Origin: Candidatus Krumholzibacteriota bacterium
Lineage (GTDB): Bacteria > Krumholzibacteriota > Krumholzibacteriia > LZORAL124-64-63
Direction of reading: 5' to 3'
Length of the DNA stretch: 39,813 nt
Assembly (NCBI GenBank): GCA_024277025.1
Contig: JAJRWA010000047.1
Span: forward strand, 1 to 39,813
Below, one piece after another: positions 5,801-35,273 of the stretch. Every line of letters starts with the position of its first letter. Position 1 is the first letter of the stretch. The notes below the pieces were generated by a model, which had not been told where the DNA came from, ran no database searches, and saw only the letters and a list, made by a program, of their open reading frames with translations. The position numbers were made by a program, and so were the translations under genes.

Positions 5801-5826
5801 CCGATTCCTCCTTACAGGGGACGTCC

Positions 5827-9633: not shown

Positions 9634-9744
9634 GAAGACGTCCTTGCTATTCCAAATGCAATAGACACAATGGATTATCGACACATTCGGCCCGCTGGCC
9701 TCAGGCCCGGCAACCCGCTTCGTGACAAATCATTACCAAATAAA

Positions 9745-13383: not shown

Positions 13384-13465
13384 GGGGACGCACTCTACTC
13401 TTTTTGCGTGTTCCGGACAATACCGGAGCCCGATTATTGAGAATTTGTTCAATTGGCGAATTGCG

Positions 13466-13495
13466 TTGAAATCACTCGGCACTTTCCGCTAGATT
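13466..13495 (+). promoter_or_regulatory. Candidate promoter for the giant surface-protein operon, in the divergent malE intergenic region
   Basis: TTGAAA (13466-13471) and TAGATT (13490-13495) are spaced by 18 bases. Transcription would begin about 7 bases on, at or just before the ATG at 13505, which has no Shine-Dalgarno sequence, so a leaderless message is possible. TAGATTCG also partly fits the TAnnTTTG element of Bacteroidota promoters. The 121-base region is AT-rich and must also hold the malE promoter, for which I see no convincing -35/-10 pair. Confidence 0.4.
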
Positions 13496-15268: not shown

Positions 15269-15295
15269 GACCGCTCGCTTGTCTTCAATGTCACC

Positions 15296-18200
15296 ATGGC
15301 CGACACGTCGCTGGGTGCCGTCCTGCTGACGGCCATCCGGGCCACCCATCTGGTGATCATCAATGATGACGGCGAGGATCTGCCCGAGGTCAAGGCCACC
15401 TTCTACGATCAGGACGGCGGGGTTCCGTTCACGAGCGGCCGGGTCCTGCTGGCCGCCCGTGATGACCACGGACGGGATGACCTGTACGACCTGGATGGCC
15501 GGCTGAGCGGATTCCGCTTGTCGGCCCGCAAGATGGACGACCTGTCGCCGACCCGGGGCACATCAGTCTACTACCGGGACGAGACCGAGGCTTCGGTCGA
15601 CTCGGTGGTCAGCTTCGCGGACGGGCGCGCCCGGTTCTGGATGAGCAACACGGCCGTCGAGGTGCTGCGGGTCTACCTCGCCCAACCCGACAAGGCACCC
15701 ATTGCCGGGCGCATCATCGTCGCCTTCCAGGACCCGCAGCCGACGACTGTGGTCCTGACCGCCGACCGGGATACGCTCGTGGCCGACAATACCGAAGTCG
15801 TCACGATCTTCGCCCAACTGTACTACTCGGCCGGCAACACGAGTCCCCTGGCCGACACACCGGTGAGCTTCGCCGTGGGCAATTCCTCGGTGGGCAAGGG
15901 CCAGTTCGAGGTGCCGACAACCCTGACCAACAGCACCGGCCTGGCCAGGGCCAGGCTCACGGCCACCGGCGCCGGTCCCCTGCTGATCACCGCCTCGGTC
16001 GTGATCGACAATCGGGTCCTGACCGTCGAGGGCGGCGAACTGGGCAGCGGTGAGCCGTTCCTGACGGTCGTCCCGCTGGCCGGGCCGACGGCCGGCTGGC
16101 GGGTGTCGGTGCCGAGCCAGGTCAGCGCCCTGGACCGCCCGGTAGCCGTTACCGGGCAGTTGGTGGACCTGTTCGGCAACCGGACCACCGACCCGGACCT
16201 GCCCATCATGTTCAGTGCGGACCCACCGGAGCTGGGTTCATTCGAACCCATCACGGCGGTCTCGGACACGAACGGCCGGGCCCTGAGCGTATTCACGCCG
16301 GCGGGCGGCTCCGGCCTAGTGACCATCGGCGGCGACGGCGGCAGTCTCGCCGGCGACGCCGCCAGCGTGCAGCTGCGGGACGTCAAGGTGATTCCCGATC
16401 CGGTCTGGTTCGAGGAGCCGCGTACACGGCAGACCTTTGACAAGACCGATCTGACCGCCCTGGTGATCGACAACACTCCCGACGAATTGATTCTCGAATT
16501 GCCCTTCCAGTCGGATTTCAACGGCATGCAGCTGCATGTCGTCTTCGAGACCAACTTCGATGCCGCGGGCGCCGGCCGTGACCCGTTCGAACAGCCGGTC
16601 AACTACGGCCATGCCGACCGGCCCGACTACGTGCTGACCTCGAAGTATTCGGCGAACGACTATGGCGACTTCCGGCGCTGGAACACGCCCGGCGCCCGCT
16701 GGGAATTCTGGGATCTGGCCAACGACGAGTACAGCGAAGCCGCCGTGGACCAGAACATCCAGGGGCCGTGGGTGAGCAAGGAAGCCGACCGCGTGGTCAT
16801 TCGCATGCCCTGGGCACCTCTGGGCGGCGCGCCGGACTCCCTGCGGCTGGAGGCCTACCTGACCCAGGATGACGGCGAAAAGCGAGCGGCCTTCGACTCG
16901 GCCCCGCAGGACTCGACGCTGAACCTGACCTTCGACTACACCGACCCCCAGCCCGGTGACTGGGACACGGCTCTCGGTCCGGTGACCCTCGTGGCCTGGG
17001 GCGAGACCTACACCGTCAAGACGGACTTCCCCACGCCGCCGGCGGTGACCGAAGTGACCGCGGACCCGGCCGAGGTGGGAGCGGGCGAGATCATCGTCCT
17101 GAGCGCCCTTGTCGTCGATGGCGGCGACGGCATCGGTGACGTGCTGGCCGACCTGAGCGCCATGGGCGGTGGCGCCCTGAGCCGGATGTACGACGACGGC
17201 GACCCGAACCACGGTGACGTGACCGCCGGTGACGGCGTCTACAGCCTGCGGACGCTAGTGCCTCCGGGCAATCCGGGCGGCTCGCAGGAGCTGCTGGTCA
17301 AGGCCAACGACGGCGCCAACATCTGGCCCATGACCGAGGCCGTGACCATCACCGTCACGCCGATCATCGAACCGCTCGTGGTGGCCCTGGACCCGGTTGG
17401 CGACGATCATGGTCCGAACCAACCCGGCAGCCCGCGCAAGTTCACGACCTACCCGACCAATATCGCCTTCGTGCCCGGCGCCTTCGACATCACGGCGCTG
17501 ACCGTCTTCGAGACGGTCGCCAACGTCGGCGGGGAACAGGTGGAGATGATCGCCTTCCAGGTCAGGATCGTCGATTTCCCCGACCCTAACGATCCGGGAA
17601 CCGCCAACTGGAGCCCCCTGTACGCGGACCTGAATATCGAGAAAATAGACATCCTGATCGACACCGGTCCGGGTGGTTCGACCGCCACCCTGCCCAACCG
17701 GCAGGCCGCGTTCCAACCCTGGGACGCCTGGGACTATGCCATCATCATGGACGGCTGGTACAAGGCCCTGATCCCGTCCCTGGGCCAGAACACGATCGAC
17801 TCCTGGCGCGACAACGCCCTGCGCTCGGACAAGGACATCCTGCTGGTCGGCGACCCGGCGACCGACACCATCACCGCCCTGGTTTCCAAGGCCGCCCTGG
17901 GCGAACCGACGGCCGAGGACATCCGCGGCTGGGACATGGTTGTCTGCCTGGCCAGCCACGATTTCGGCGGTGAAGAGGTGCTCGGCGGCATCCGCTGGGT
18001 CAACGAGGCCCGCAGCGAATGGAACTTCGGCGGCGGTCAGAACGGAGACCGGGACTCGAATCTCATCGACCTGCTGCTGGTGCCGGGCTCGGGCCACAGC
18101 GCAGGCCTGACCCAGGAAGAGATACTGGACTACGAATCCGCCGCCGCCCTGCAGCGGCTCGAGTCCGGCGAGACACCGGTGGCCATCGAGATGTCCCAGT

Positions 18201-19456
18201 TCGAGGATACCGGCCCGCCGGTCATTGACGTCGGCGGCAAGGGCTCGGTCGTCACCAGGGTCATGCCCCTGGCCGACGCCCCCCTCGCCCTGACGATCGG
18301 AATCACCGACGACTTCCGGGTCGACCGGGCCGAGTTTCGCTACCGGTCGAGTGGATTTACCGGCGACGGCTGGCAGCATGTCGTGCCGATGGGCTTTCTG
18401 GGCCGCGACCGGTGGGTCGTGGACATCATGCCCTCGTTCCTCGATTCACTGGTCGTCTCTCCCATCGATTCGACCCGCTACCTGGAGTTCGAGGTCTGGG
18501 CGATCGACCCCCTGGACAAAGCAACGACCTCACCGGTGACCACTCTGGAAATCGCCGAGAGCTCATTGTGCCGCCCCGAGGACTCCACGCTGGACCGGAC
18601 GAATCTGGCCCTGCTGCAGGTGGACGGCTCGGCGCTGATCGTCTCGGACCAGTTGAGCCGTTGGCTTGTCGACAACCACGTGGCCAACGCCTGGCCGGGC
18701 GAGCCCGTGTCGCCGGACACGATGGCTGCGGCGGTGGAACTGCAGTGGGACATCTGCAACATCCCCAGTGACGAGCAGAGCGCTCCGGCCGTGCCTCCGG
18801 GCCAGCCGATCGGCGTGTTCCGGCAGGTCTTCCTGGCCACGGCCGATACTCTGGGCGGCTACTTCGACCACCAGGCCAAGCTGCCCCGCACGATGGATCT
18901 GTCCCTCCATTTTCCGCAGGCCTGGCTGCCCGCAGGCGTGGACAGGAATTCGGTGGCCATGTACGAGTACCATGCCGGGTCGGACCGCTGGGTCCTGATC
19001 GGGGGCAACGTCAGCCTGACCGGCAACAACGTGACCGCAGCCGTCAAGGGCGCCGGCGTCTACGGCTTGTTCCGCACCGAGGGCGTCAGCTTCGATCCCC
19101 AGGAAGTGCTGTCGGGCACCCTTGTGTCGCCCAATCCGTTTTCGCCCAACGGCGACGGCCTCTACGACGAGACGTCGATTTCATTCTATCTGACCCAGGA
19201 AGCGACGGTCACCGTCGAGGTCTACAACATCTACGGGGACCGCAAGAATATCCTGACCCAGACGTTCTCCTATGCCGGTACCGACCAGGATGACACGACG
19301 CCGCGCCGGGTGCCCGGGCTGGTCTGGAACGGCACTGACTTCAAGGGCGATGTGGTGCCCTACGGTATCTACGTCCTGCGCATCATCGCCACCTACAACC
19401 AGGCCGGCGGCACGCGCACCATCCGGACGAATTTCCCCGTGGCGGTGATCAAATGA
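15296..19456 (+). CDS. Giant multidomain surface protein, C-terminal part (Big_1-like, glucodextranase-C-like, FlgD/T9SS-type domain)
   Basis: 1386 residues from the first ATG after the TAG, but really in frame from 15269 with the upstream part. In order (numbering from this ATG): the end of a beta module, invasin-like Ig modules (about 140-355; LTADRDTLVADNTEVVTIFA), CBM9-like segments (about 370-580), an Ig-like domain (about 585-695), and a domain closely resembling the glucodextranase C-terminal carbohydrate-binding domain (about 700-960: DPVGDDHGP, TYPTNIAFVPGAFDIT, WDAWDYAIIMDGW). Further beta domains follow, then a sorting-type C-terminus with VSPNPFSPNGDGLYDETSISF and WNGTDFKGDVVPYGIYVLRI. 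No catalytic motif was recognised, so it is likely a surface glycan-binding or scaffold protein. Its last codon overlaps the start of the PorV-like gene (ATGA). Without readthrough or internal initiation this part would have no signal peptide and no ribosome site. Confidence 0.75.
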   Translation: MADTSLGAVLLTAIRATHLVIINDDGEDLPEVKATFYDQDGGVPFTSGRVLLAARDDHGRDDLYDLDGRLSGFRLSARKMDDLSPTRGTSVYYRDETEASVDSVVSFADGRARFWMSNTAVEVLRVYLAQPDKAPIAGRIIVAFQDPQPTTVVLTADRDTLVADNTEVVTIFAQLYYSAGNTSPLADTPVSFAVGNSSVGKGQFEVPTTLTNSTGLARARLTATGAGPLLITASVVIDNRVLTVEGGELGSGEPFLTVVPLAGPTAGWRVSVPSQVSALDRPVAVTGQLVDLFGNRTTDPDLPIMFSADPPELGSFEPITAVSDTNGRALSVFTPAGGSGLVTIGGDGGSLAGDAASVQLRDVKVIPDPVWFEEPRTRQTFDKTDLTALVIDNTPDELILELPFQSDFNGMQLHVVFETNFDAAGAGRDPFEQPVNYGHADRPDYVLTSKYSANDYGDFRRWNTPGARWEFWDLANDEYSEAAVDQNIQGPWVSKEADRVVIRMPWAPLGGAPDSLRLEAYLTQDDGEKRAAFDSAPQDSTLNLTFDYTDPQPGDWDTALGPVTLVAWGETYTVKTDFPTPPAVTEVTADPAEVGAGEIIVLSALVVDGGDGIGDVLADLSAMGGGALSRMYDDGDPNHGDVTAGDGVYSLRTLVPPGNPGGSQELLVKANDGANIWPMTEAVTITVTPIIEPLVVALDPVGDDHGPNQPGSPRKFTTYPTNIAFVPGAFDITALTVFETVANVGGEQVEMIAFQVRIVDFPDPNDPGTANWSPLYADLNIEKIDILIDTGPGGSTATLPNRQAAFQPWDAWDYAIIMDGWYKALIPSLGQNTIDSWRDNALRSDKDILLVGDPATDTITALVSKAALGEPTAEDIRGWDMVVCLASHDFGGEEVLGGIRWVNEARSEWNFGGGQNGDRDSNLIDLLLVPGSGHSAGLTQEEILDYESAAALQRLESGETPVAIEMSQFEDTGPPVIDVGGKGSVVTRVMPLADAPLALTIGITDDFRVDRAEFRYRSSGFTGDGWQHVVPMGFLGRDRWVVDIMPSFLDSLVVSPIDSTRYLEFEVWAIDPLDKATTSPVTTLEIAESSLCRPEDSTLDRTNLALLQVDGSALIVSDQLSRWLVDNHVANAWPGEPVSPDTMAAAVELQWDICNIPSDEQSAPAVPPGQPIGVFRQVFLATADTLGGYFDHQAKLPRTMDLSLHFPQAWLPAGVDRNSVAMYEYHAGSDRWVLIGGNVSLTGNNVTAAVKGAGVYGLFRTEGVSFDPQEVLSGTLVSPNPFSPNGDGLYDETSISFYLTQEATVTVEVYNIYGDRKNILTQTFSYAGTDQDDTTPRRVPGLVWNGTDFKGDVVPYGIYVLRIIATYNQAGGTRTIRTNFPVAVIK

Positions 19457-20346
19457 AGCACATCACCGACCGCCGCACCTTGTTGGGTCTGCTCGGGCTG
19501 CTGGGGATTTGCTGCGGCCTGGTGCCCTCCGCCCGGGCGGATTTCCGCCACGCCGGTGTCGGCGCCCGGCCCAAGGCCCTGGGCTCGGCCTTTGTCGCGG
19601 TGGCCGACGACGCCAACGCAGCCTATTGGAATCCCGCCGGCCTGACGCGCAGCAACCGCACTTCACTGATGCTGAGCAACAGTTGGCTCTACGGCGTGTC
19701 CGAGATCGACAACTATTATCTGGCCATGGAGCTGCCCAGCCTCGGCGCCTTCCACTTCGGCGCCTCCTGGGTCCGGCTGGGCATCACCGACATCTACAGC
19801 GAGGACACGATCAGTCTGGCGGTGGCCGCCGAGCTGCCGTTCATGACGGGCCTGAGCGTGGGCCTGGCCGGCAAGATGTTCGTGCTCGACGCGCCCGGCT
19901 ACGACCAGTACAACGACCCGAATTTCACCGGCGGCGACCAGGGCTATTCCGCCGACCTCGGCCTGCTCTACGACAGCGGCGGCCCCTGGACCCTGGGCGG
20001 CACGATCTACAATCTGCACGAGACTTCGCTGCAACTGCTGAGCAGCACCGCCAATCCCGATCCGGTCTACACCGAGTGGGCCGGCGGCGGCAGCTACCTG
20101 TTCCGCGACACGCTTCTGCTGACCGCCGACTTTCGCAACCGCGAGGGCCGCACCACGGACATCGTGCTGCACGGCGGCGCGGAGATCTGGTTCTTCGACG
20201 CCCTGGTGCTGCGCACAGGGCTGGACCGCGGCATGGTCACCCTGGGCGTCGGCCTGCAGGACATCCACTGGGAGGCGGACTTCTCCCTCGAGACCGACAA
20301 CAATCTGGGTAACATCTACATGTTGTCCTTCACCATAAGAAACTGA
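19453..20346 (+). CDS. PorV/PorQ-family outer-membrane protein
   Basis: A 297-residue outer-membrane beta-barrel protein with a signal peptide ending SARA. The mature N-terminus FRHAGVGARPKALGSAFVAVADDANAAYWNPAGL carries the hallmark of the PorV/PorQ (UPF0164-like) family: G-A-R-x-x-x-L-G-x-A-F, DDANA and WNPAGL. In Bacteroidota, PorV receives T9SS cargo after export and helps attach it to the surface. The length is a little short for PorV (about 350-390) and near PorQ. Its start overlaps the stop of the giant sorting-domain protein by 4 bases, which suggests coupled production of a cargo and its outer-membrane partner. The remainder is alternating amphipathic strands such as SVGLAGKMFVLD. 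T9SS function in this organism is inferred, since no core T9SS gene is in the window. Confidence 0.85.
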   Translation: MKHITDRRTLLGLLGLLGICCGLVPSARADFRHAGVGARPKALGSAFVAVADDANAAYWNPAGLTRSNRTSLMLSNSWLYGVSEIDNYYLAMELPSLGAFHFGASWVRLGITDIYSEDTISLAVAAELPFMTGLSVGLAGKMFVLDAPGYDQYNDPNFTGGDQGYSADLGLLYDSGGPWTLGGTIYNLHETSLQLLSSTANPDPVYTEWAGGGSYLFRDTLLLTADFRNREGRTTDIVLHGGAEIWFFDALVLRTGLDRGMVTLGVGLQDIHWEADFSLETDNNLGNIYMLSFTIRN

Positions 20347-20354
20347 GGCTGGCG

Positions 20355-21995
20355 TTGAGAAAGATCTCCTTGCTGAACGCATGTCCGCTGCCGCCGACGC
20401 GGCGGCGACGTCTGCTGGCCGCAGCAACGGCAGCCGCGGTCCTGGCCGCGTCCCTGCCGGCAGCCAGGGCGGCCAACAAGCTCGAGGGTTACTACGAGGC
20501 CGAAGTCAGCGCCCAGAAGGACGACGGCAAGTGGCACTTCGGCGCCCCGAGCGCCAACGGCATTCCCCGGCACTACGCGGAGCTGAAGTTCTGGTCCTGG
20601 CCGAACGACCACTTCGAGGTCTTCGCCAAGGTCAAGGCCGAGTCCAACCGCGACGACGACCGCTCGCCGGGCATCGACTACTTCGCTCCGCCCTGGTTCA
20701 ACGGCGAGGGCCACATCAAGCTGCGGCAAGACAAGTACGAAGCCTACCTCTTCTACCGGCAGAACCGGTTCTACATCAACGACGAGCCCCTGCTGCGGCT
20801 GGTCGACGACGGCAAGCTGAAGAACGACGACTGGGGCCCCAAGGCCCAGGGCATCCGGTTCGATTTCTGGGATACGAACTTCCTGGGCATTCCCAATCTG
20901 GGCGGCACCGTGATCACCAGTGACAACGGCGGCACGTTCAGCACCAACGGAGTCGACGTGCCCAACGGCGAGAACTCGTGGATTCTGCGCGGCCGGCACA
21001 AGGCCTGGGAAGGCCGCATCGAGACCGGCGCCATGTTCATCCGCAAGGACTGGACCGACACCTCCCAGGAGAACTGGCCCGAGTTGCTGGGGCTGATGTA
21101 CAACAACGTCTATTCGCTGGATGTGGCCTTCAGCCCGCGCAACCTCGTGGCAACCGGACTGCGGCTGGGGCCGCTCAATCTGGAGCAGACACGGTGGACG
21201 GCGGAAGCGGCCATCAGCGAACAGCCTTACGACGTCGAGGTATTCGGTACGAGCACGGCCAAGTCACGGGCCATCGCCGTGGAGATGCGTGACCTGCACG
21301 TGAGCGACCTGACCGTCCACGCCTGGTATAACGATTTCGGCGAGGACTTCCGTGATTTCACCTCCAGCCGTTTCGACAACAGCCGCGAGTACAACCGGGT
21401 CCAGAACCATGTCGAGGGTATCTGGCTGGTGCCGAAGAAGGCCGTCACCGCCAAGGTCAATTTCGACCACTACCGCAAACGATACGCCGACGAGCCCGGG
21501 GGCGGCCTGCGGCCGACAACCGAGTGGTATGCTGAGCTTTACATGGAGTACGTCAACGGCTTCAAGTCGCGCTTCGCCTACCGCAACTGGCATGGATTCG
21601 ACCAGTCCCTAGAGGTGAACAGTTTCACCCACTACCCGGACTGGTTCGCCGAGGTTTCGGTGGAGAACTTCCTGGCCAAGATCCGCCTGCAGGCCAGGAT
21701 CCACGACGCCGGGACCTTCCGCCAGGTGACCATCTACGGTTTCGACATGAGTGTGAACCTGACTGACCGCATGAAGGGCTATCTGCGGGCCATGAACGTC
21801 AACGAGACGATCGAGGCCCGCCATACGATGTTTGCCCAGTTGAAGTACGATGTCGGGTGGGGCGCCGAGGTTTATTTCGAGTACGGCGACGCGGGCCAGT
21901 CCGACAATCTGGTTTACACGGACTGGTTCATCAACGAAGGAAGCAACGACAATCTGCGCGACCGCTTCAAACTGCTGGTCAAAGCGTGGTTCTGA
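20355..21995 (+). CDS. Predicted outer-membrane beta-barrel protein, function unknown
   Basis: A 546-residue exported protein with a signal peptide ending AARA at about residue 39. The start is TTG with GAGG 6 bases upstream; no in-frame ATG gives a signal peptide. The mature sequence is a long series of short amphipathic strands with aromatic ends (for example YYEAEVSAQ, YAELKFWSW, FEVFAKVKAE, WYAELYMEYV, AEVYFEYGD) and ends in Phe (LLVKAWF), the usual barrel-assembly signal. There is no TonB box or plug domain, so it is not SusC-like. It lies 8 bases after the PorV-like gene and 20 before the CBM48 barrel. It may form a pore or scaffold for glycan passage; nothing in the sequence identifies a family. 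Confidence 0.75.
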   Translation: MRKISLLNACPLPPTRRRRLLAAATAAAVLAASLPAARAANKLEGYYEAEVSAQKDDGKWHFGAPSANGIPRHYAELKFWSWPNDHFEVFAKVKAESNRDDDRSPGIDYFAPPWFNGEGHIKLRQDKYEAYLFYRQNRFYINDEPLLRLVDDGKLKNDDWGPKAQGIRFDFWDTNFLGIPNLGGTVITSDNGGTFSTNGVDVPNGENSWILRGRHKAWEGRIETGAMFIRKDWTDTSQENWPELLGLMYNNVYSLDVAFSPRNLVATGLRLGPLNLEQTRWTAEAAISEQPYDVEVFGTSTAKSRAIAVEMRDLHVSDLTVHAWYNDFGEDFRDFTSSRFDNSREYNRVQNHVEGIWLVPKKAVTAKVNFDHYRKRYADEPGGGLRPTTEWYAELYMEYVNGFKSRFAYRNWHGFDQSLEVNSFTHYPDWFAEVSVENFLAKIRLQARIHDAGTFRQVTIYGFDMSVNLTDRMKGYLRAMNVNETIEARHTMFAQLKYDVGWGAEVYFEYGDAGQSDNLVYTDWFINEGSNDNLRDRFKLLVKAWF

Positions 21996-22015: not shown

Positions 22016-24493
22016 ATGTTTGCCAAGGAGATCCGCATGCAGGAAATCCACAGATTCGCCCGCCGGATGCTGCCGGCGCTGCTGGCTCTGGCCCTGACCG
22101 TGGCGGGCGTCGCTTTCGCCGGGCCGATCGCCGGCGAAGGAGGTGTGGTCTTCACGCTCGGCGCACCGGACGCCCAGGCTGTGTTCCTGGCTGGTGATTT
22201 CAACGGCTGGAACGCGAGTGATCTGGCCCTGGCCGATGACGGCAACGGCAATTGGACGATCACGGTGGCGCTCGACCCCGGCACGTACGAATACAAGTTC
22301 GTGGTCGATGGTGACTGGCGGGAGGACCCGGGCAACCCGGACAAGAAGTCCGATCCCTTCGGCGGCGCCAACTCGGTGGTCACGGTGGCGGCCGACGGCG
22401 GTCTGGCCGGGGCTGCTGTCACGGCAGTGCCCGCTGCGACTGCGGCAGGCGCGACGCCGACAGCGGACGACATCAAAGTGGGCGCTCCCCGCGCTGTCGA
22501 CGGCGGCATCGCCTTCACATTCCACGACTCTGGTGCGACAAGGGTCAATCTGGCCGGCAGTTTCAACGGCTGGAACGCCGACGATACTCCGCTGGCCGGT
22601 GACGGCCAGGGCAACTGGATCGTGGTCCGCGAGATGGCCGCCGGTCAGCACGAGTACAAATTCGTCGTTGACGGCAACTGGTTGGCCGACCCGGAGAATC
22701 CCGACACCCAGTCCGACCCCTACGGCGGTGTGAACTCGGTCATCACCGTCGACGAAAAGGGCCAGTTGACGGCCACCGAGGCCGGCGGCACGGCGGCCGC
22801 CGCCAACAACACCCTGAATGCCAAGGTCACCATCGACGGCCGCTATCTGACTCGGTTCCGATACGCCAAGAATGTCGCCGTCGACGTCAACGACGAGTCG
22901 AAGGTCGACCCACGTTTCCGCCTGCAGCGCCCCACCCAGAGCGTGGACCTGAATTTCAATACGGAAGTCAGCGAGATTGCGCGCACCTTCATGCGTCTGC
23001 GCCTGGATTCGGACCAGAACATCATCCAGAACAACGTGGCTGCGGTTCTGGACGAGGCCAATCTGGAAATCAACCCCGAGGAATTTGCACTGAAGGCCTA
23101 CTGGAACCAGGAAGTGTTCACCGGCGAAGACTTGCTCAAGCTGGGCGGCGATGTGGACCTGCCCGGCACGATCATGCACGACCATCTGGACTACGGCAAG
23201 GGCACGGCCGGGGCCCTGTTTGTCGCCGACCCACTGGGTGTCCGCACGCGCCTGTACTTTGCCAATGTCCACAACTCGGACTACTACAACGATCCCGATC
23301 TGTTTGACAATACCGGCGAGGACCGGGTCAGCCTGCGATTCTCCCGCCAGTTCGGAAGATTTGAGATCGGGGCTCCCCTGTATGCTGAGCGCGCCCTGGT
23401 CTGGCTGGATTTCGGTTCCCTGGTCAGCCTGCCTTCCACCGGCATTCCCGCTCTGGACGATCATCTGGCCCAGACCGGTGACACGAGTACCTGGTACGAA
23501 GTCGACAACTACCTGCTGAACGGCGGACTGGACCTGCGCTACACGGCGTCGAAGCGCTGGGCTTTCGCGGCCGAGGCCCTGTATCGCAATGGGGTGCAGC
23601 GAATTGCCACCGGCAACGAGGCCGGCCAGAACAACACCAACGGCGCCATGGATGTGCCCTTCCTGGACCGAAGATCACTGGTGCTCGCGGCCCGGGCCGA
23701 GTTTGACGTCTCGGAGCGGAGCCGGCTCACCTTGCAGCACCAGACCAATCGCATGGACAGCGGCAACGCCGACGAGCGGTTGATGGTCTATTCTTTCAAG
23801 CCCCAGAGTGAAGCCAACAAGAACATCTTTTTTGCCATCGACGGCAGTCCTGCCGTGGCTGACCTGGATTCCACCGAACTGACCTGGAACTGGCAGGGTG
23901 ACAAACGGTCGGCTGCGCTGTGGCTGCGTCGCGCCGGCCGCGATCTCGACTACGGCGCCGTGGACCGCACCGCGCCGGAAGACAGTACCGTCAGCAGCCA
24001 CACGGAGAACATCTGGTACCTGGCCGGCAGCGTGGCGACCGGGAGCTCCGGCGATCGGCTGGGACAGATCGAACTGGAGGCCGCCTATACCCTGACCGAC
24101 CGCGGTGTCGCCGGACTGCAGAACAACCAGCTTGAGATGATCCTGCGCTACGACCATGACCTGACCCGCAACGTGGGCTTCATCGCCGACCTGCGGTTTA
24201 TTACCTACCACCTGGAAGGGCAAGCCGACGGCACGACCGGCGGCACGATGGACACCGACTTCTTCAACCCCTTTGTCGGCTTCCGCTACACCCCCATCCG
24301 CAAGTTGGAACTGGTCGCCGCCTATGGTGTCGATCCGGTGGACTATTCCATCGAGTACGGCGGCCGCCAGATCGGCCGCTGGATGTTCCGCCAGAACTAC
24401 TTGTTCGACCATCCGGGTGCCTCTGACCTGGAAGCCGAGAACTACCTCAAAAGCGCCCGGGTCGTAACCCTGCGGGCCCAATTGCTGTTCTAG
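22016..24493 (+). CDS. Outer-membrane beta-barrel with two N-terminal CBM48 glycan-binding modules
   Basis: 825 residues. Signal peptide about 1-36 (ALTVAGVAFA), two CBM48/E-set modules at about 40-122 and 155-245, an Ala/Thr-rich linker between them, then about 560 residues of barrel-like strands ending in LRAQLLF with a terminal Phe. Both modules keep the family core: FLAGDFNGWN and LAGSFNGWN, then YEYKFVVDGDW and HEYKFVVDGNW, then DPFGGANS and DPYGGVNS. CBM48 modules bind alpha-1,4/1,6 glucan in branching enzymes, isoamylases and AMPK. In a standard barrel the N-terminus faces the periplasm, so the modules may hold glucan on the inner side of the pore (inference). Two starts are possible: 22016 (GGGGAG 6 bases upstream) or 22037 (AGGAG 6 bases upstream). 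It ends 10 bases before the CBM48 lipoprotein gene. Confidence 0.85.
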   Translation: MFAKEIRMQEIHRFARRMLPALLALALTVAGVAFAGPIAGEGGVVFTLGAPDAQAVFLAGDFNGWNASDLALADDGNGNWTITVALDPGTYEYKFVVDGDWREDPGNPDKKSDPFGGANSVVTVAADGGLAGAAVTAVPAATAAGATPTADDIKVGAPRAVDGGIAFTFHDSGATRVNLAGSFNGWNADDTPLAGDGQGNWIVVREMAAGQHEYKFVVDGNWLADPENPDTQSDPYGGVNSVITVDEKGQLTATEAGGTAAAANNTLNAKVTIDGRYLTRFRYAKNVAVDVNDESKVDPRFRLQRPTQSVDLNFNTEVSEIARTFMRLRLDSDQNIIQNNVAAVLDEANLEINPEEFALKAYWNQEVFTGEDLLKLGGDVDLPGTIMHDHLDYGKGTAGALFVADPLGVRTRLYFANVHNSDYYNDPDLFDNTGEDRVSLRFSRQFGRFEIGAPLYAERALVWLDFGSLVSLPSTGIPALDDHLAQTGDTSTWYEVDNYLLNGGLDLRYTASKRWAFAAEALYRNGVQRIATGNEAGQNNTNGAMDVPFLDRRSLVLAARAEFDVSERSRLTLQHQTNRMDSGNADERLMVYSFKPQSEANKNIFFAIDGSPAVADLDSTELTWNWQGDKRSAALWLRRAGRDLDYGAVDRTAPEDSTVSSHTENIWYLAGSVATGSSGDRLGQIELEAAYTLTDRGVAGLQNNQLEMILRYDHDLTRNVGFIADLRFITYHLEGQADGTTGGTMDTDFFNPFVGFRYTPIRKLELVAAYGVDPVDYSIEYGGRQIGRWMFRQNYLFDHPGASDLEAENYLKSARVVTLRAQLLF

Positions 24494-24503
24494 GAGATCT
24501 GAT

Positions 24504-24965
24504 ATGCACGGGCTGCCGAAATCTCTGAGGTCCATCCCGGTGGCGGCGCGCCGCCACCGGGCCGCTATTGCCGTGACGGCACTGCTGTGCCTGGCGCTGG
24601 CCGGCTGCAGCTACTCACGCATCCTGCGCAACAGGCTGCCGACGCCGCACCGGGTCGACGATTTCGAGAACGCCGTGCGCTTCTTCTACGAAGCACCGCA
24701 GGCCCGACACGTGAACCTGTGCGGCAACTGGGATGAGAACGGCTGGTGCGGCACCAAGACCAGCGGTGTCTTTGACCACAGCATCGGCGCCATGCACGAC
24801 AACGACAAGGATGGGATCTGGGAAATTGTGATTCCGCTGCGGCCGGGCCGATACCAGTACAAGTTCGCCGTCGATTGGGGCCTGCGCTGGGAGCAGGACC
24901 AGAACAACCCCCTGGGCGAAGATGACGGCTTCGGCGGGCAGAACTCGATTCTCGTCCTGCACTGA
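24504..24965 (+). CDS. CBM48 glycogen-binding lipoprotein
   Basis: A 153-residue lipoprotein: signal peptide with LALAGC (Cys35 lipidated), then a short linker and one CBM48-like module (about 50-153). The module shows VRFFYEAPQARHVNLCGNWDE, YQYKFAVDWGLRWEQD and a DDGFGGQNS tail, the same ending as the modules of the GH13 enzyme at 26451-29483. Compared with the others it carries an insertion between the first strands with a DNDKDG loop and two Cys residues (LCGNWDENGWC) that could form a disulfide. It follows the CBM48 barrel by 10 bases with GGAG 7 bases before the ATG, so it closes the plus-strand operon. A small lipid-anchored glucan-binding subunit working with the barrel is the natural reading; surface or periplasmic location cannot be told. 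Confidence 0.85.
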   Translation: MHGLPKSLRSIPVAARRHRAAIAVTALLCLALAGCSYSRILRNRLPTPHRVDDFENAVRFFYEAPQARHVNLCGNWDENGWCGTKTSGVFDHSIGAMHDNDKDGIWEIVIPLRPGRYQYKFAVDWGLRWEQDQNNPLGEDDGFGGQNSILVLH

Positions 24966-25042: not shown

Positions 25043-26191
25043 TCACCGGTACAGGCTCTTCAACGAACCCCAACTGGAATTCTCAGTGGCCACCGGGTCG
25101 CACACGCCGGGGCCATCTTCCCAGACATGGGGCAGCGTCGTCTCAGCCGCCGCATCATTGTCCACGGTGAAGAACTGGTTGCCGCCGCCTTCCCACGTGC
25201 CGCAGTCGTCCTTCTTGTACTTGAACTCGAGATTCAGCGGAATGGCCGTGCCGGCCGGGAACACGAGGCAGGCCTGATACAGATCGGTCGCGATCATGTC
25301 GGCCGGGACACCGGTGCCCCAAGCACCCAGTTCGGGGATGTTGCCGATGACGCAAACGGCACCAACGTTGTCCACGCCGGCCATACAGACCTGGAAACAG
25401 ACCACCTTGTCCTCGGTCAGGGTCGTGCCCATGCCGCACTGCATCGGAGCGTTGTCCCAGCTGTCGGCCGCCAGCACCACATTGGTCGTCCCGTCGGTCG
25501 GCAGCGAGACCAGGCGGTTGCCAACGCCTTCCCAGGTCGAGCAGGCATCCTTCTTGAACTTGTACTCGAAGTTGGGGTTGCCGCCCGCCGCGAAAACCAC
25601 GTCGACTTCGTAGAGCTCACCACCGGTGTTGGTCATGGCAACACCCGCGCCCCAACTGCCGATCTCAGCGGCCGAGCCGATGACGCAGGCACCGTCGGTC
25701 GTGGCCGCTCCGCTCAGGCAGAGCGTGAAGTGCACCGTGACGTCGTTCGGCAGGACATTGCTCACGTTATAGCGGAACGGAGGCGAGTTTCCGGACTGGT
25801 CGGCCAGGACCTCGAAGTCCGAAGCATCGGTCGCGTCGGTGAAGACAATCGTCACATCCACCCACGCGGCGCCCGCCAGGGCCGCCTGGGGCACCTGAGC
25901 CGTGTACTCGTCGTTGCTGGCGCCGTTGTCGCCCAGGAAAGTCATGGGCACCGAAGCTTGCGGGGCAATATCTGTCGTATAATACAGCATCGCGGAGATG
26001 TCCGCGCCCTGTCCCGGCTGGTCGGTCACGCCGCTCTTGAACACCTGGGCGTAGACATCCACCGGTCCGGTCGGCACAACGGCGTGGCCGTCGGTGGGCC
26101 AGACCTGACCGGCCCAGTCGATCACGGCGAACGCACTGCCGGCAGCGCCAAGCGCCAGCATCACGGTAGCCAGCATAATCAATTTCTTCAT
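25043..26191 (-). CDS. Secreted protein with two CBM20-like starch-binding modules
   Basis: A 382-residue exported protein. The signal peptide MKKLIMLATVMLALGAAGSAFA is followed by a beta domain (about 25-140) and two similar modules (about 148-245 and 255-355). Each has the CBM20 order: FTLCLSG or FQVCMAG, then IGSAAEIGSWGAGV or IGNIPELGAWGTGV, FEYKFKKD or FKYKKDD, and TWEGVGNRLVSL or TWEGGGNQFFTV. CBM20 binds raw starch through exposed Trp residues, and Trp is present at both usual places (SWG/AWG and TWEG). Paired cysteines in each module could form disulfides. There is no catalytic domain or FlgD-like tail; the protein ends SSWGSLKSLYR. GGGAGG precedes the ATG by 5 bases. The gene is probably its own transcription unit, bounded by hairpins at 24994-25023 and 26392-26417. 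It resembles SusE/SusF in concept, not in sequence. Confidence 0.85.
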   Translation of the reverse strand: MKKLIMLATVMLALGAAGSAFAVIDWAGQVWPTDGHAVVPTGPVDVYAQVFKSGVTDQPGQGADISAMLYYTTDIAPQASVPMTFLGDNGASNDEYTAQVPQAALAGAAWVDVTIVFTDATDASDFEVLADQSGNSPPFRYNVSNVLPNDVTVHFTLCLSGAATTDGACVIGSAAEIGSWGAGVAMTNTGGELYEVDVVFAAGGNPNFEYKFKKDACSTWEGVGNRLVSLPTDGTTNVVLAADSWDNAPMQCGMGTTLTEDKVVCFQVCMAGVDNVGAVCVIGNIPELGAWGTGVPADMIATDLYQACLVFPAGTAIPLNLEFKYKKDDCGTWEGGGNQFFTVDNDAAAETTLPHVWEDGPGVCDPVATENSSWGSLKSLYR

Positions 26192-26391
26192 GATTCCCTC
26201 CCGGGGAATGGGGCCCGGCACGACGTCCGCGGAGCGGCAACAGTGGAACCGGACATACTTGGGGTGTGGGCGAACCAGAGGCTGCTTGCCCTCTCTTACC
26301 AGCCCCGCTCAATGAACAGGAGCTATCGGCATTCATTTTATCATATTTCTTATTGAAACTGCATTGTTTTTGATCAATTTCGACCGCAGAA
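26192..26391 (-). promoter_or_regulatory. Candidate promoter and long leader of the CBM20-like gene
   Basis: An AT-rich patch at 26330-26380 holds overlapping -10-like hexamers on the minus strand, TATGAT (26340-26345) and TAAAAT (26335-26340), but no good -35 at the right distance. Transcription from here would give a leader of about 130-140 bases before the ATG. The leader contains a possible 7-bp stem (GGGGCTG with CAGCCTC) and does not match any riboswitch I know. Confidence 0.35.
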
Positions 26392-26450: not shown

Positions 26451-29400
26451 TTAATTCAACAACATGGCCCCGCTCAGCCCGGGCAGCACGACCTCCACAT
26501 CCCCGCCCGTGAGATCCAACTCTTCACCCGACCGGAAACTCGCCCCGGCTGCGCGCGGGAAGGCATCCGGCCCCACCACCGCTTCCAGGATCAGCGGCGC
26601 GTCCTCGCCCGCCAGGTCCACCAACTGCTGCCGGGCCAGGGTCAATGTCACGGCCGTGGGGCCGGCGTTGAACAGCGACACGGCCAGCTTGCCATCCAAC
26701 TCGCGGGCGATCGCCAGGGCACGCCCCTCGGTCGCCAGCGTCGTGAACGACCCCCGCCGCAGAACCGGCGTGTCCCTCCGCAGGCGCGTGATCGTCCCGT
26801 AGTAATCGCGCAGCGCCTGCCGCCGTGGATCGCCCGTGTAGCGCCAGTCCATGGGCCGCCGGCAGTCCGGATCCTTGCCCCCCAGCATTCCCACCTCGTC
26901 GCCGTACCAGATGTGGGGCATGCCGACATAGGACATGCTGAACATGGCGCCGAGCATCAACCGCCGGACATCGCCGGCGCTGGTCAGGAAGCGGATCGTG
27001 TCGTGGCTGTCCATCAGGTTCATCATCACGGCCACCGACTGGGGCGGATACTGGAAACGGCCCGGACTCAGGCGTGCATCAAAGGTGGCCGCATCGATGC
27101 TGCCCTTGCCGAAGAAGTCCATCACCGGGTCGCGGAATAACTTGTAGTTCATGGTCGAGTCGAAGCAGTTCGGGCTGATCCACCGCCCGGCGTTGCCCCA
27201 GATCTCGCCCACCAGCCACACATCCGGCTTGATGGAATTGCAGCGTTCGCGGAACAGCTTCCAGAACCAGAACGGCACTTCGTTGGGCACGTCCAGCCGG
27301 AAGCCGTCGATGTCGAACTCGCCCAGCCACACGTCGGCGGTCTTGAGCACGTAGTTCACCACGTCCATGTTCGGCGTGGCGTCCGCGATGTCGTCGATGT
27401 TGTTCTCGTCGGCGTTGCTCAGTTTCAGATCGTAGTTCAGGTTCGGGTGCAGCCCGAAACCCCACCAGCAGTCGTAGTATTCGCTGGCGTTGAAGTCGCG
27501 CGACGAAGGCAGCGGCCATTTGTGGAATTCATACCAGTTGTAGTACTTGCTCCTGGGCCCGTTCTCCACCGCGTCGCGGAAGGCAAAATGCCAGTTGCCG
27601 GTGTGGTTGAAGGCCATATCCACCACGACCCGGATGCCGTGCTCGTGGCACGCCTTGACGAACGCCTTGAACTCCGGGCGGCCGCCGAAGTGCGGATCGA
27701 TATCCAGGTAGTCCACGGGATCATACTTGTGGTTGCTCATGCCCTGGTTCAGGGGGTTGAAGTAGATAACCGTAATGCCCAGGTCGTTCAGATAGTCCAG
27801 GTGTTCCTGCACACCCGCGATGTCGCCCCCGTAGAAGCTGAAGTAGTCGGGCTTGCCGTCGGTGCGGTACGGGCTGCGCACCAGGCCGGCCACATCATAC
27901 CAGTCATCGATGAGATGGAAGTACTCGCTGTTGGTCTTGCCGCTGGCCGGCAGTGTGCGCGCTCCCTTGTACATGGGCTCACTGAAGTCGGGATCGTTGG
28001 CCTTGTCGCCATTGGCGAAGCGCTCGGGGAAGATCTGGTAGATGACTCCGTCCTTGGCCCACTCGGGTGTGAAGAAGGCCGGGAATTCGGCGGCACGGTA
28101 GACGAAGCGCGGCGTGTCCGCTGTGGCGCTCATGCCCTGCAGGCCGAAGTACTCGGTCGTGCCGGCGTCGCGGTAGGTCACGAGGTAGGCCAGTTCGTCG
28201 GCCGCGTCGTCCAGCTTGATCGTGGTTCGGTAGTACTGGAACGAAGCATCCCGCTCGACCTCGGTCAGGGGCTGTTCCTGGTCTGAACCTCCGCCAACAC
28301 GGTAGACCAGGGTCACCGCCCCCACGTCGCCCAGATGGGCCTTGGCCGTGATGGCGATCTCGGTGGGACTGAGCGGATTGCAGGTCGAGTAGTCGAAGAT
28401 CGGCTCCAGGTCGTCACTGTAGATGTTGCCGTCGCCCAGTTCGATCTCGATCGTGGCGTAGTTGGCGTCGACCTTCAGCACGGAATTCTGGCCGCCGAAG
28501 CCGTCCTCCACGCCGTCGGGATTGTTGGGGTCCTGCTGCCAGTTGCCGTCGACGACGAACTTGTACTGGTAGGAGCCCTCGGCCAGCAGCAGGGTCACGG
28601 TGTAGGTGCCGTCGTTGTCGGCATCGCTCATCTTGGTCTTGGCGTCGTTCCAGTCATTGAACGAGCCGGCCAGGTAGACCGTGCCAACCCCGGAGATGAC
28701 CGGCGTGTAGCGAAATTCCACCGAGCGCAGCTCGCCGCTGCCGGCAGGAGCGGTGGCCAGCGCGGCGGCGGCCGCGCCGCCCGCCACCGCATCGATCCGA
28801 TCCTTGCCCGCCGGCACGTGCAGCAGGGAATTCTGACCGCCGAAGCCATCGTCCTTGCTGTTGGGGTTGCCCGCATCCTGGGTCCAGACACCGTCGACGA
28901 CGAACTTGTACTGGTAGTCGCCCGGATCCAGATTCAGCACCAGGGACCACACACCGTCCTTGTTGGTCATCGGGTTCGCCGAATCGCTCCAGCCGTTGAA
29001 GTCCCCGGCCAGGTACACGCTCGCCACGCCGGCAGCTTCGTGACGGAACGCAACGGCCACCTGGTCGCCGCCGACCGCCGGTGCCGCGGGGGCAGCCACG
29101 GGTACCGCACCGGCAGGCGCCCCGGTGCCGGCCGCCATTTCGGCGACGCCGGGCGCCACGGTCACCAGCGAGTTCTGACCGCCGAAACCGTCGTCGGTCG
29201 TTTCAGGGTTGTTGGGGTCGGCGACCCAGTTGCCGTCCACCACGAATTTGTACTGATAGGATCCCGCCGTCAGATCGAGCGCCAGCGTCCAGACTCCGTC
29301 GTGATTGTCCATCGGGTTGGCCGAATCGCTCCAGTTGTTGAACTCGCCGGCCAGATAGACCGCGCCCGCCTGGGGAGCTTCATGGCTGAACGTGACCTCG

Positions 29401-29483
29401 GTCGCGCCGGCAACGGCAACCCCCAGGGCCCATGTTGAAATGACGACCAGCCAGCAAAGGCGGCAAAGGGTCCTGTGTGACAT
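26451..29483 (-). CDS. Secreted GH13 alpha-amylase/neopullulanase-type enzyme with three tandem CBM48 modules
   Basis: A 1010-residue exported enzyme. A signal peptide (about 1-27) is followed by three CBM48 modules (about 28-108, 140-222, 253-338), a beta domain resembling the N-terminal CBM34-type domain of neopullulanases (about 355-455), the GH13 barrel (about 465-910; VIYQIFPERFANGD) and a C-terminal beta domain. The four GH13 regions are intact: VVVDMAFNH, GFRLDVPNE with nucleophile Asp731, VGEIW with acid/base Glu760, and DSHD with Asp828. Each CBM48 has YLAGxFNxW, YQYKFVVDG and DGFGGQNS. The start at 29483 has GAGGAG 6 bases upstream; the longer frame is not coding. Expected action: hydrolysis of alpha-1,4 bonds in starch, pullulan or cyclodextrins outside the cytoplasm. 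No sorting domain, so it may be periplasmic or released. Confidence 0.92.
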   Translation of the reverse strand: MSHRTLCRLCWLVVISTWALGVAVAGATEVTFSHEAPQAGAVYLAGEFNNWSDSANPMDNHDGVWTLALDLTAGSYQYKFVVDGNWVADPNNPETTDDGFGGQNSLVTVAPGVAEMAAGTGAPAGAVPVAAPAAPAVGGDQVAVAFRHEAAGVASVYLAGDFNGWSDSANPMTNKDGVWSLVLNLDPGDYQYKFVVDGVWTQDAGNPNSKDDGFGGQNSLLHVPAGKDRIDAVAGGAAAAALATAPAGSGELRSVEFRYTPVISGVGTVYLAGSFNDWNDAKTKMSDADNDGTYTVTLLLAEGSYQYKFVVDGNWQQDPNNPDGVEDGFGGQNSVLKVDANYATIEIELGDGNIYSDDLEPIFDYSTCNPLSPTEIAITAKAHLGDVGAVTLVYRVGGGSDQEQPLTEVERDASFQYYRTTIKLDDAADELAYLVTYRDAGTTEYFGLQGMSATADTPRFVYRAAEFPAFFTPEWAKDGVIYQIFPERFANGDKANDPDFSEPMYKGARTLPASGKTNSEYFHLIDDWYDVAGLVRSPYRTDGKPDYFSFYGGDIAGVQEHLDYLNDLGITVIYFNPLNQGMSNHKYDPVDYLDIDPHFGGRPEFKAFVKACHEHGIRVVVDMAFNHTGNWHFAFRDAVENGPRSKYYNWYEFHKWPLPSSRDFNASEYYDCWWGFGLHPNLNYDLKLSNADENNIDDIADATPNMDVVNYVLKTADVWLGEFDIDGFRLDVPNEVPFWFWKLFRERCNSIKPDVWLVGEIWGNAGRWISPNCFDSTMNYKLFRDPVMDFFGKGSIDAATFDARLSPGRFQYPPQSVAVMMNLMDSHDTIRFLTSAGDVRRLMLGAMFSMSYVGMPHIWYGDEVGMLGGKDPDCRRPMDWRYTGDPRRQALRDYYGTITRLRRDTPVLRRGSFTTLATEGRALAIARELDGKLAVSLFNAGPTAVTLTLARQQLVDLAGEDAPLILEAVVGPDAFPRAAGASFRSGEELDLTGGDVEVVLPGLSGAMLLN
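28470..29402 (-). repeat. Three tandem CBM48-coding repeats
   Basis: Three related units of about 240 bases (roughly 29160-29402, 28820-29063 and 28470-28727) encode the CBM48 modules of the GH13 enzyme, separated by Ala/Pro/Gly-rich linkers. Protein similarity is strongest at the end of each unit (YQYKFVVDG to DDGFGGQNS), and parts such as the YQYKFVVDG codons are nearly identical in DNA, pointing to internal duplication. Confidence 0.85.
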
Positions 29484-29869
29484 GGTCCACTCCTCGGGAA
29501 TCTCGGCAGACGGATGGATAGCGTGCGGAAAGCCACATCCTACCAGAATCCGCACGAGAATCAACCTGCGTGTCGGCAGCGGTGGCCAGACCGGGCCGTC
29601 GCGCACCTGGGCCAGCCGGGGTGAGCCCGGCCTGTCGCTGACGCCGGGCACGCTTTTCAGATAGGCCTGCAGGTTGGTCGACTTCGCGGCCACGCCCAGC
29701 TTCCGGTGGTCGCATGGGCGAAGAGACAATGCTGATGGGAATTCGGCTTATTGCGTCGGGTTCACGTCGGGGTGGCGCATCACGGCAGCTTCCTACTCAA
29801 ACCAAATGGATTGTGATACAATTGCAAAGTCCCCCGTTTCAATGCCCTGGAATACTGCTGGGAGGCCTC
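29484..29869. promoter_or_regulatory. Divergent intergenic region between the two GH13 genes
   Basis: This 386-base stretch holds the minus-strand promoter at 29537-29564. On the plus side a -10-like TACAAT (29817-29822) lies 48 bases before the ATG at 29870, without a clear -35. The middle, about 29570-29790, is open in several frames but shows no ribosome site, recognisable motif or repeat, and I see no gene in it. Confidence 0.5.
29537..29564 (-). promoter_or_regulatory. Sigma-70-type promoter for the CBM48-GH13 gene
   Basis: On the minus strand TTGATT (29559-29564) and TAGGAT (29537-29542) are 16 bases apart, predicting a start near 29530 and a leader of about 47 bases containing the GAGGAG ribosome site of the GH13 gene. 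Confidence 0.55.
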
Positions 29870-31780
29870 ATGCCACGGACCACCAATCTTCGCCGCACCC
29901 GCGCGAACACCAGCCACCTGGGGGCGTTTTGTCTGCTGCTGACTTTGCTGCTGATGGTGTCGGCCTGCAGCGACAACTCCCGGCCCGCGGCCCCGGCGGT
30001 CCCTCCGGCCGAAACCGGGGCCAAGGCCCGTACCGACACCTTCACTCTCGCCGCACCCGGCCTCGACTCGGTCCACGTCGCCGGCTCGGCCAATGGCTGG
30101 AACGACCAGGATCCGGCCTGGGCCCTGACCCTGCAGCCGGACAACGTGACCTGGCAACTGATCAAGGAAGTCAGCGACGGTCTGGCCTACTACAAGTTCG
30201 TCATGCGCAAGGACGGCGTCGTGGAGTGGCTCACCGACCCGCGCGCGACCGAGGTCGCTCCGGACGGTTTCCACGGCGATCCCGCTTATTGGAATGCCCT
30301 GAAAGGCCGCACTTTCACTGCGCCGCAGCCGCTGTCGGCACCGGTGGACCGATCCCGGCTCGTGATCTACGAAATGTCCCTCAACGACTTCAGCGCCACA
30401 GGCACCTTCGCCGGCGCCGTGGCGGGACTGACCGCGGGCGCCAACCTGGCCGACCTCGGCGTCAACGCCATCGAACTGATGCCCGTGACCGCGCCTTCAT
30501 ACAATGGCTGGGGCTATGATCCGGTGCTGCAGTTCGCGGTCAACGGCAGCTTCGGCTGGCCGGGCACCTTCGCCAGCCTGGTGGACGAAGCCCACAGCCG
30601 GGGCATGGCCGTCATTCTGGACGCCGTGGTCAACCACATGGCCGGCAGCGCTCCCCTGCGCCAGATCGACAGTTTCACCGGCACCAACACCTTCACCACC
30701 ACCGAGAGCAACCCCTGGGGCCTGGTCGAGCTGAACTGGACCAACCCCTACCTCAAGGCGCACATCCTGGACGCCCTCTCCCACTGGGTGACGGCCTACC
30801 ACGTGGATGGCTTCCGCTTCGACTACGTCGGGGGCGAACCCTACAGCACCTGGATCTGGCTGCGGACCGAACTGCTGGCCCGGCATCCGGACTTGATCCT
30901 GATCGGCGAGGACTTCAACTATCCCGCCAACTCGATCACCTACGGGTACGATGCCCAGTGGGGCGGCAACCACACCGACGGCTGGGGCGGCGGCGGCAAC
31001 AATTTCTGCCAGGTCCTGGCCACGGCCCTGAACCAGAACGGGTTCGCCTGGCGTGGTGAACTGACGCCCTCGGTCGGCGCCTTCGGCGTGCCGTACAACA
31101 ACATGTGGGCGCTGGCGAATGTCATTTCGCCCAACAGCAACTACGTAGGAGCCGCGCCGGGCGACGGTTTCAGCGACGTCAAGTTCCTTGAGAGTCACGA
31201 TGAGAACCGGGTGGTCTGGTCGGTCAACACCCTGGGATCCGGCGCGGCACAGGCCATGGGCGGCCTGCACGTGGCCCACCTCGGCGCCGTGATCAGCCTG
31301 ACCAGCGTGGGCATTCCCATGCTCTACAACGGGCAGGAGATCGGTTCCGGCGAGTACCGTCCACAGGGCACGACCATCGACAAGATCGATTGGGCCGCCG
31401 GCGATGCGGCCCTGCGCCGCACGTACAAGTACCTGATCGGCAAGCGCCTGACCCTGCCCGCCCTCGCCAGCGAGAACGTGCAGTTCCAGTGGCGGGACGG
31501 CAACCTGGACAACAGCGAGTTCACGTTGACCTACAGCCGGGGCAGCCTCAGCGATCCGGCCTCCCACGAGGTCCTGGTCGCGGCCAATTTCGACGGTCAG
31601 GACCACAGCTGGGAGGTGCCCTTCCCCGCGCCCGGAACCTGGGTGCAATTCGTGCCCACGGCAAGCTACGTCGAGACGATCTTCGTGCCGGGAACCAGCC
31701 TGACGGTGACCGTGCCGGCCGGATCGGCCCGCGTCTGGTTCCGCGAAGACGGCACGACCGGCGTGCCGCCGACCCGTTGA
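29870..31780 (+). CDS. GH13 alpha-glucan enzyme, lipid-anchored, with N-terminal CBM48-like domain
   Basis: A 636-residue lipoprotein enzyme. The signal peptide ends LLMVSAC (Cys33 lipidated). A CBM48-like E-set domain (about 50-145; VHVAGSANGWND) precedes a compact GH13 barrel (about 160-540) with the four regions present: ILDAVVNHMAG, GFRFDYVGG with nucleophile Asp318, LIGEDF with acid/base Glu347, and ESHDENR with Asp444. The opening VIYEMSLNDFS and the later LADLGVNAIELMPV resemble branching-enzyme and trehalohydrolase-type members more than classical amylases, so the reaction (hydrolysis, debranching or transfer) is open. A C-terminal beta domain follows. GGAGG lies 4 bases before the ATG; the longer upstream frame would bury the lipobox. 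It leads the plus-strand set with malK and the debranching enzyme, and is divergent from the other GH13 gene. Confidence 0.9.
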   Translation: MPRTTNLRRTRANTSHLGAFCLLLTLLLMVSACSDNSRPAAPAVPPAETGAKARTDTFTLAAPGLDSVHVAGSANGWNDQDPAWALTLQPDNVTWQLIKEVSDGLAYYKFVMRKDGVVEWLTDPRATEVAPDGFHGDPAYWNALKGRTFTAPQPLSAPVDRSRLVIYEMSLNDFSATGTFAGAVAGLTAGANLADLGVNAIELMPVTAPSYNGWGYDPVLQFAVNGSFGWPGTFASLVDEAHSRGMAVILDAVVNHMAGSAPLRQIDSFTGTNTFTTTESNPWGLVELNWTNPYLKAHILDALSHWVTAYHVDGFRFDYVGGEPYSTWIWLRTELLARHPDLILIGEDFNYPANSITYGYDAQWGGNHTDGWGGGGNNFCQVLATALNQNGFAWRGELTPSVGAFGVPYNNMWALANVISPNSNYVGAAPGDGFSDVKFLESHDENRVVWSVNTLGSGAAQAMGGLHVAHLGAVISLTSVGIPMLYNGQEIGSGEYRPQGTTIDKIDWAAGDAALRRTYKYLIGKRLTLPALASENVQFQWRDGNLDNSEFTLTYSRGSLSDPASHEVLVAANFDGQDHSWEVPFPAPGTWVQFVPTASYVETIFVPGTSLTVTVPAGSARVWFREDGTTGVPPTR

Positions 31781-31868
31781 CCGGCGGATTTCGCGTGGAG
31801 CGATTCCGTGCCCTGTGGTAGTCTGCACACTCACCGAGCAGAGATCCCCCAACCACGAGGAGCCCGCC

Positions 31869-32963
<1,095 letters not shown>

Positions 32964-35250: not shown

Positions 35251-35273
35251 GATCGGCGCGGGAGCAACCGAAA

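Follow-up and report, generated by a model that had tools for sequence, protein, structure and literature searches.

CBM48 modules are known mostly from cytoplasmic enzymes and from AMPK. BcsC and PgaA, the exporters of cellulose and PNAG, respectively, carry N-terminal periplasmic domains. The window analysed here, an entire contig of 39,813 nucleotides from a Candidatus Krumholzibacteriota bacterium, encodes at 22016–24493 (+) a secreted protein of 825 aa, as seen from its translation. In this protein, a signal peptide is followed by two CBM48/AMPK-type modules, a short linker rich in Ala, Gly and Thr, and 560 further residues. The modules belong to the sequence family of the AMPK beta glycogen-binding domain and CBM48 (PF16561, PF02922), and agree with them in modelled fold and in the four positions that contact glycogen. 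However, the usual setting of these domains is a cytoplasmic enzyme or a kinase subunit, whereas here they are secreted and joined to a probable outer-membrane barrel. We regard this protein, called CBM48-barrel below, as a probable outer-membrane channel with starch- or glycogen-gripping modules at its N-terminal end, and thus as a probable carbohydrate channel that has built-in binding modules and belongs to an unnamed barrel family.

The sequence GGGGAG stands ahead of the start codon, and both the start and the signal peptide (MFAKE...GVAFA/GP; 22016–22120 (+)) are kept in near relatives. Signal peptides, as expected for outer-membrane proteins, were found in the CBM48-barrel family. Module 1 covers residues 38–126 approximately (22127–22393 (+)), and module 2 covers residues 158–250 approximately (22487–22765 (+)). 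The three motifs that the original prediction had assigned to each module were located once per module in the translation: FNGWN at residues 62–66 and 183–187, YKFVVDG at residues 93–99 and 214–220, and GGxNS as GGANS at 116–120 (module 1) and GGVNS at 237–241 (module 2). The Pfam models AMPK1_CBM (PF16561; E 1.3e-30, 105.8 bits, curated cut-off 26.8) and CBM_48 (PF02922; E 1.4e-22, 80.3 bits, curated cut-off 22.4) each matched two stretches of the protein.

The module pair was modelled by AF2 using an alignment made of the CBM48 modules of the window's own GH13 and two relatives. The pLDDT was 74–88 in most 10-residue blocks of the domains. The top PDB matches of the model found by Foldseek were amylase/branching-enzyme domains and AMPK-beta glycogen-binding domains, with a TM (target) of up to 0.87 and an rmsd of 1.5–2.7 Å. 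The model had the fold of 4yef and 1z0m; for 4yef, the AMPK CBM in complex with cyclodextrin, the TM was 0.86 and the rmsd 1.7 Å. Residues W186, K215, W222 and N240 of module 2 align with W, K, W and N of the AMPK beta1 glycogen-binding domain, which are its glycan contacts. These residues are invariant in all 26 sequences reaching the region, and their counterparts in module 1 are invariant in all 13 sequences having that module. In the family alignment, module 1 is confined to closer kin and module 2 is universal. Profile matches and modelling together show two genuine CBM48 modules with a predicted AMPK-type fold and conserved, putatively glycogen-contacting positions. The claim that a CBM48 pair precedes a part of about 560 residues is thus borne out by the translation, the two Pfam models and the modelled fold.

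A profile of the barrel alone detected relatives in 33 of 80 genomes from the phylum. It also found 13 genomes of 11 families outside the phylum, these being labelled as sharing only the domain with the source. The two named relatives are Candidatus Krumholzibacteriia. CBM48 lies ahead of the barrel in each of the 46 relatives whose N-terminus is intact: in 26 of the 27 in the first alignment, the remaining one being cut by the contig, and in 20 of the 20 distant relatives, one of which also has a CBM20. No barrel relative lacking CBM48 was seen among these 27 + 20 proteins, and no relative of CBM48-barrel was found in viral contigs. Shared as it is by all full-length relatives, the fusion goes far beyond what chance would give. 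The original prediction was aware of no described porin of this kind. No counterpart was found in Pfam, NCBIfam or the PDB, and the full-text search of open-access PMC literature returned no description of it. More diverged versions of CBM48-barrel were observed in distant members of the class (L092 6948–9785, L093 8263–11058 and L113 2186–5039), where the small CBM48 protein after it is not single but doubled in tandem.

The probable outer-membrane beta-barrel domain comprises residues 266–825 (22811–24493 (+)). Its family profile found no relative in Pfam, NCBIfam or the PDB (searched to E 10). LamB and other porins of known structure gave no sequence match in Pfam or in the PDB profile search to E 10, and the TonB receptor plug and barrel profiles of Pfam matched none of the 27 + 20 members. 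As the AF2 model of the full 825-aa chain, built from a three-row alignment (with relatives L040 and L041), reached a mean pLDDT of 33, we used sequence measures with controls. The final residue is F in all 26 relatives with an intact C-terminus, and hydrophobic residues occur at −3, −5, −7 and −9, which reads as the usual beta-signal pattern. Because the classes overlapped when strands were scored on single sequences, we turned to family averages and a classifier. The mean amphipathic-strand z of 23 CBM48-barrel members was 3.4, compared to 3.4–4.2 for FepA, LptD and OmpG, at most 2.35 for each of the other window families and −1.7 for the beta-helix passenger of Ag43; the measure is not sensitive, as LamB and OmpF score low on the single-sequence strand score. 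The strand density of the barrel family was 5.0 per 100 aa, against 4.4–6.0 in known barrels and 2.4–3.8 in soluble controls.

The logistic classifier took as positives E. coli OMPs together with the phylum's own Omp85 and TonB-receptor barrels, and as negatives secreted and membrane proteins from the same loci. In leave-family-out controls, its recall was 88% and 62% for the families left out, and it found six of seven E. coli OMPs; it called 0% of the negatives positive, except for GH13 (20%). All 23 members of the CBM48-barrel family (mean 0.82) and 11 of the 13 relatives outside the phylum were positive; because three shadow ORFs were also called OMP-like, such calls are not proof of a barrel. 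A hand-made strand map with boundaries set by eye holds about 22 strands, in which turns of about 2 residues alternate with loops of about 22. An automatic test for short turns and long loops failed to set known barrels apart, and no topology is claimed from it; with hand-placed boundaries and this outcome, we treat the map as a hypothesis. Taken together, these measures strongly suggest that residues 266–825 form an outer-membrane beta-barrel. The prediction of about 560 barrel-strand residues ending in Phe therefore stood as to length, Phe and OMP-like strands, while closure of the barrel is only suggested and the number of strands is hypothetical.

Directly upstream of CBM48-barrel, across a 20-base gap, lies the gene of barrel A (20355–21995 (+)), an OMP-like protein of 546 aa whose family is a different one and likewise unnamed. 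This family was classifier-positive in 21 of 21 cases and had no relative in Pfam, NCBIfam or the PDB; its homology to CBM48-barrel was not detectable (hhalign probability 1.1%). It is preceded by a conserved neighbour, a PorV/PorQ-like protein (19453–20346 (+); NF033709, E 2.1e-17, under the curated cut-off), and by a large secreted protein with carboxypeptidase-regulatory-like, Big_1, Glucodextran_C and CHU_C domains (13505–19456 (+)). An in-frame TAG (15266–15268 (+)) divides the latter into 13505–15268 and 15296–19456. Two separate genes at 13505 and 15296 were ruled out because about ten relatives encode the protein in a single uninterrupted frame, and the TAG reflects gene disruption, readthrough or an error of assembly. 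At 10407–13482 (−) are the genes for three components of an ABC sugar importer that are conserved in relatives: MalF, MalG and the lipoprotein MalE. Two large proteins at 3401–9684 (−) have C-terminal FlgD_ig domains, which are typical of cell-surface sorting in T9SS-bearing bacteria, and their homologues lie near the cassette in relatives.

The gene directly downstream (24504–24965 (+)) encodes a small CBM48 protein with the lipobox LAGC, a probable lipoprotein. It is followed by a secreted protein with two CBM20 starch-binding domains (25043–26221 (−)), a secreted GH13 with three CBM48 modules (26451–29483 (−)), to which models of maltodextrin glucosidase/cyclomaltodextrinase are nearest, a GH13 lipoprotein with the lipobox MVSAC (29714–31780 (+)), a MalK-type ABC ATPase (31815–32963 (+)) and a secreted GDE_C (amylo-alpha-1,6-glucosidase-like) enzyme (32968–35250 (+)). 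The CBM48 region of the GH13 at 26451–29483 (−) also matches the T9SS plug model NF052315 (E 4.8e-13, under the cut-off), a hint that Plug and CBM48 may share a fold. The last frame (35205–39812 (+)), open at the contig end and at least 1536 aa long, has repeated UvrA-like motifs (several ABC cassettes and CxxC pairs) and seems to be a fusion of multiple UvrA copies. Antisense to it, at 35394–38993, are its shadows: the three long minus-strand ORFs with an OMP-like score.

In the loci of the class, barrel A was found directly upstream of CBM48-barrel in 20 of 20, and a CBM48 protein came next in each of the 19 that extend far enough downstream. Outside the phylum, barrel A was upstream in 12 of 13 loci, the remaining one being at a contig edge, and the CBM48 protein was downstream in 11 of 13; the PorV-like protein, the Glucodextran_C protein, MalEFG and GH13 likewise recur there. 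The conserved cassette is composed of the PorV-like protein, barrel A, CBM48-barrel and the small CBM48 protein, and many bacteria from several phyla have the fusion next to genes for starch digestion and sugar import. Within the phylum, the barrel is present in 25 of the 26 genomes having the GH13 (p 9e-13) and co-occurs with barrel A in 30 of 34 (p 2e-14), both p values ignoring ancestry. Eight genomes, several of them incomplete assemblies, have the barrel and no close GH13 homologue. SusD_RagB was found in none of 78 genomes of the phylum by a search that was positive in the Bacteroides control. SprA was found in 19 of 23 and is encoded in the genome. Large ORFs with two or three CBM48 modules were seen by the cassette in two loci outside the phylum (L106 5862–8387 (−) and L101 1650–4118 (−)).

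We propose, with a probability of about 0.6, that CBM48-barrel is an outer-membrane alpha-glucan channel whose periplasmic modules hold chains and which is part of a SusCD-independent uptake cassette. The proposed substrates are maltodextrins and starch or glycogen fragments, and the fusion probably assists alpha-glucan uptake in cells that lack a SusC/SusD system of the usual kind. It is from the gene context, namely the GH13 with three CBM48, GDE_C, CBM20 and MalEFGK, that we infer this uptake role. The uptake cassette would include CBM48-barrel, barrel A, the PorV-like protein, the large surface protein and the small CBM48 lipoprotein. The large protein would capture glucan at the surface, and the glucan would enter via CBM48-barrel, perhaps together with barrel A. 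Both ends of the barrel would point toward the periplasm and, therefore, the modules would lie below the pore. This placement, as originally predicted, is consistent with the position of the modules before the first strand, the C-terminal beta-signal and the matching phase of short turns and long loops in the strand map, although, like the direction of uptake and the capture role, it is something that we infer. The modules would grip the leading chain end and hinder its return, the ratchet of the original prediction being one possible reading of this capture step, and would hold the chains close to the secreted GH13, itself having three CBM48s. The chains would then be cut by the GH13 and GDE_C enzymes, and the products imported through MalEFGK.

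It is possible, but unlikely, that the barrel is a scaffold that anchors the CBM48 modules beneath the outer membrane in a complex whose channel is barrel A or another protein. Barrel A, which could instead be the actual pore, nearly always lies directly upstream, and its co-occurrence with CBM48-barrel fits such a complex. However, the long-loop regions of CBM48-barrel contain the strongly conserved GGDxDLPGTIxxDHLxxGKGTAG and GVDPxDYSIxYxGRxxGRW and, therefore, a working channel rather than an anchor would be expected on this indirect evidence.

We also doubt that the CBM48 adjoining strand 1 folds into or under the lumen as a plug or gate and is released by glucan. Such a role would suit the order of globular domain, short linker and many-stranded barrel shared with TonB receptors, whose N-terminal plug occupies the barrel lumen, as well as the universal inner and optional outer module and the similarity of the T9SS plug model NF052315 to the CBM48s of GH13; Plug seals SprA (PMC10994853). 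However, NF052315 had no match to CBM48-barrel at E 0.01, the TonB plug domain is absent from the Pfam matches of CBM48-barrel, and a hanging module is equally compatible with the flexible linker. Just as doubtful is the wider idea of a TonB-independent importer family of several phyla, in which the glycogen-binding module would be the plug or gate and the ligand would open the pore.

It is very improbable that the 560-residue C-terminal part is not a membrane barrel but a soluble domain rich in beta structure, such as a beta-helix or sandwiches. Multi-domain beta-sandwich proteins do reach moderate scores in the strand test, and the full-chain model with its pLDDT of 33 on three rows leaves the barrel without a 3D model, but the classifier and the strand density set this part apart from the sandwich and beta-helix controls, and the terminal Phe with its beta-signal pattern is universal. 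Export, which like a pure scaffold is less likely, is the most improbable reading: a channel secreting alpha-glucan would have the periplasmic domain and barrel layout of BcsC and PgaA, but the adjoining genes encode degradation enzymes and a MalEFGK importer, and a glucan synthase was not seen in the window.

An alpha-glucan channel of the proposed kind would be a possible answer to how diderm bacteria without SusD take up alpha-glucans, since the barrel chain would itself include the means of capturing carbohydrate. CBM48, so far mostly a module of AMPK and cytoplasmic enzymes, would also gain a place at the outer membrane, via a probable barrel. As neither barrel family has a Pfam, NCBIfam or PDB relative, defining both would annotate the outer-membrane cassette of Krumholzibacteriia and of 11 families outside the phylum.

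Several known systems share parts of this arrangement. With the type IX secretion system (PorV, SprA, Plug), the locus has in common the PorV-like neighbour, the CHU_C-type C-terminal domain of the large protein and SprA in the genome, but neither barrel A nor CBM48-barrel matches any T9SS model. BcsC and PgaA have the same layout of a periplasmic domain and then a C-terminal barrel; however, they combine N-terminal TPR with a synthase, whereas CBM48-barrel combines CBM48 with degradation genes. LamB maltoporin, working with MalEFGK, is likewise a maltodextrin channel, as CBM48-barrel probably is next to its MalEFGK-type importer. However, LamB has about 420 residues against about 560 here, has no sequence match, and lacks the added N-terminal CBM48s. 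The SusCDEFG system of Bacteroidota would be functionally alike in its surface glucan-binding protein, outer-membrane barrel and secreted neopullulanase-like GH13. It differs in that CBM48-barrel has no TonB plug or receptor match and its phylum no SusD in 78 genomes, while here an ABC importer is present and the CBMs are fused to the barrel itself.
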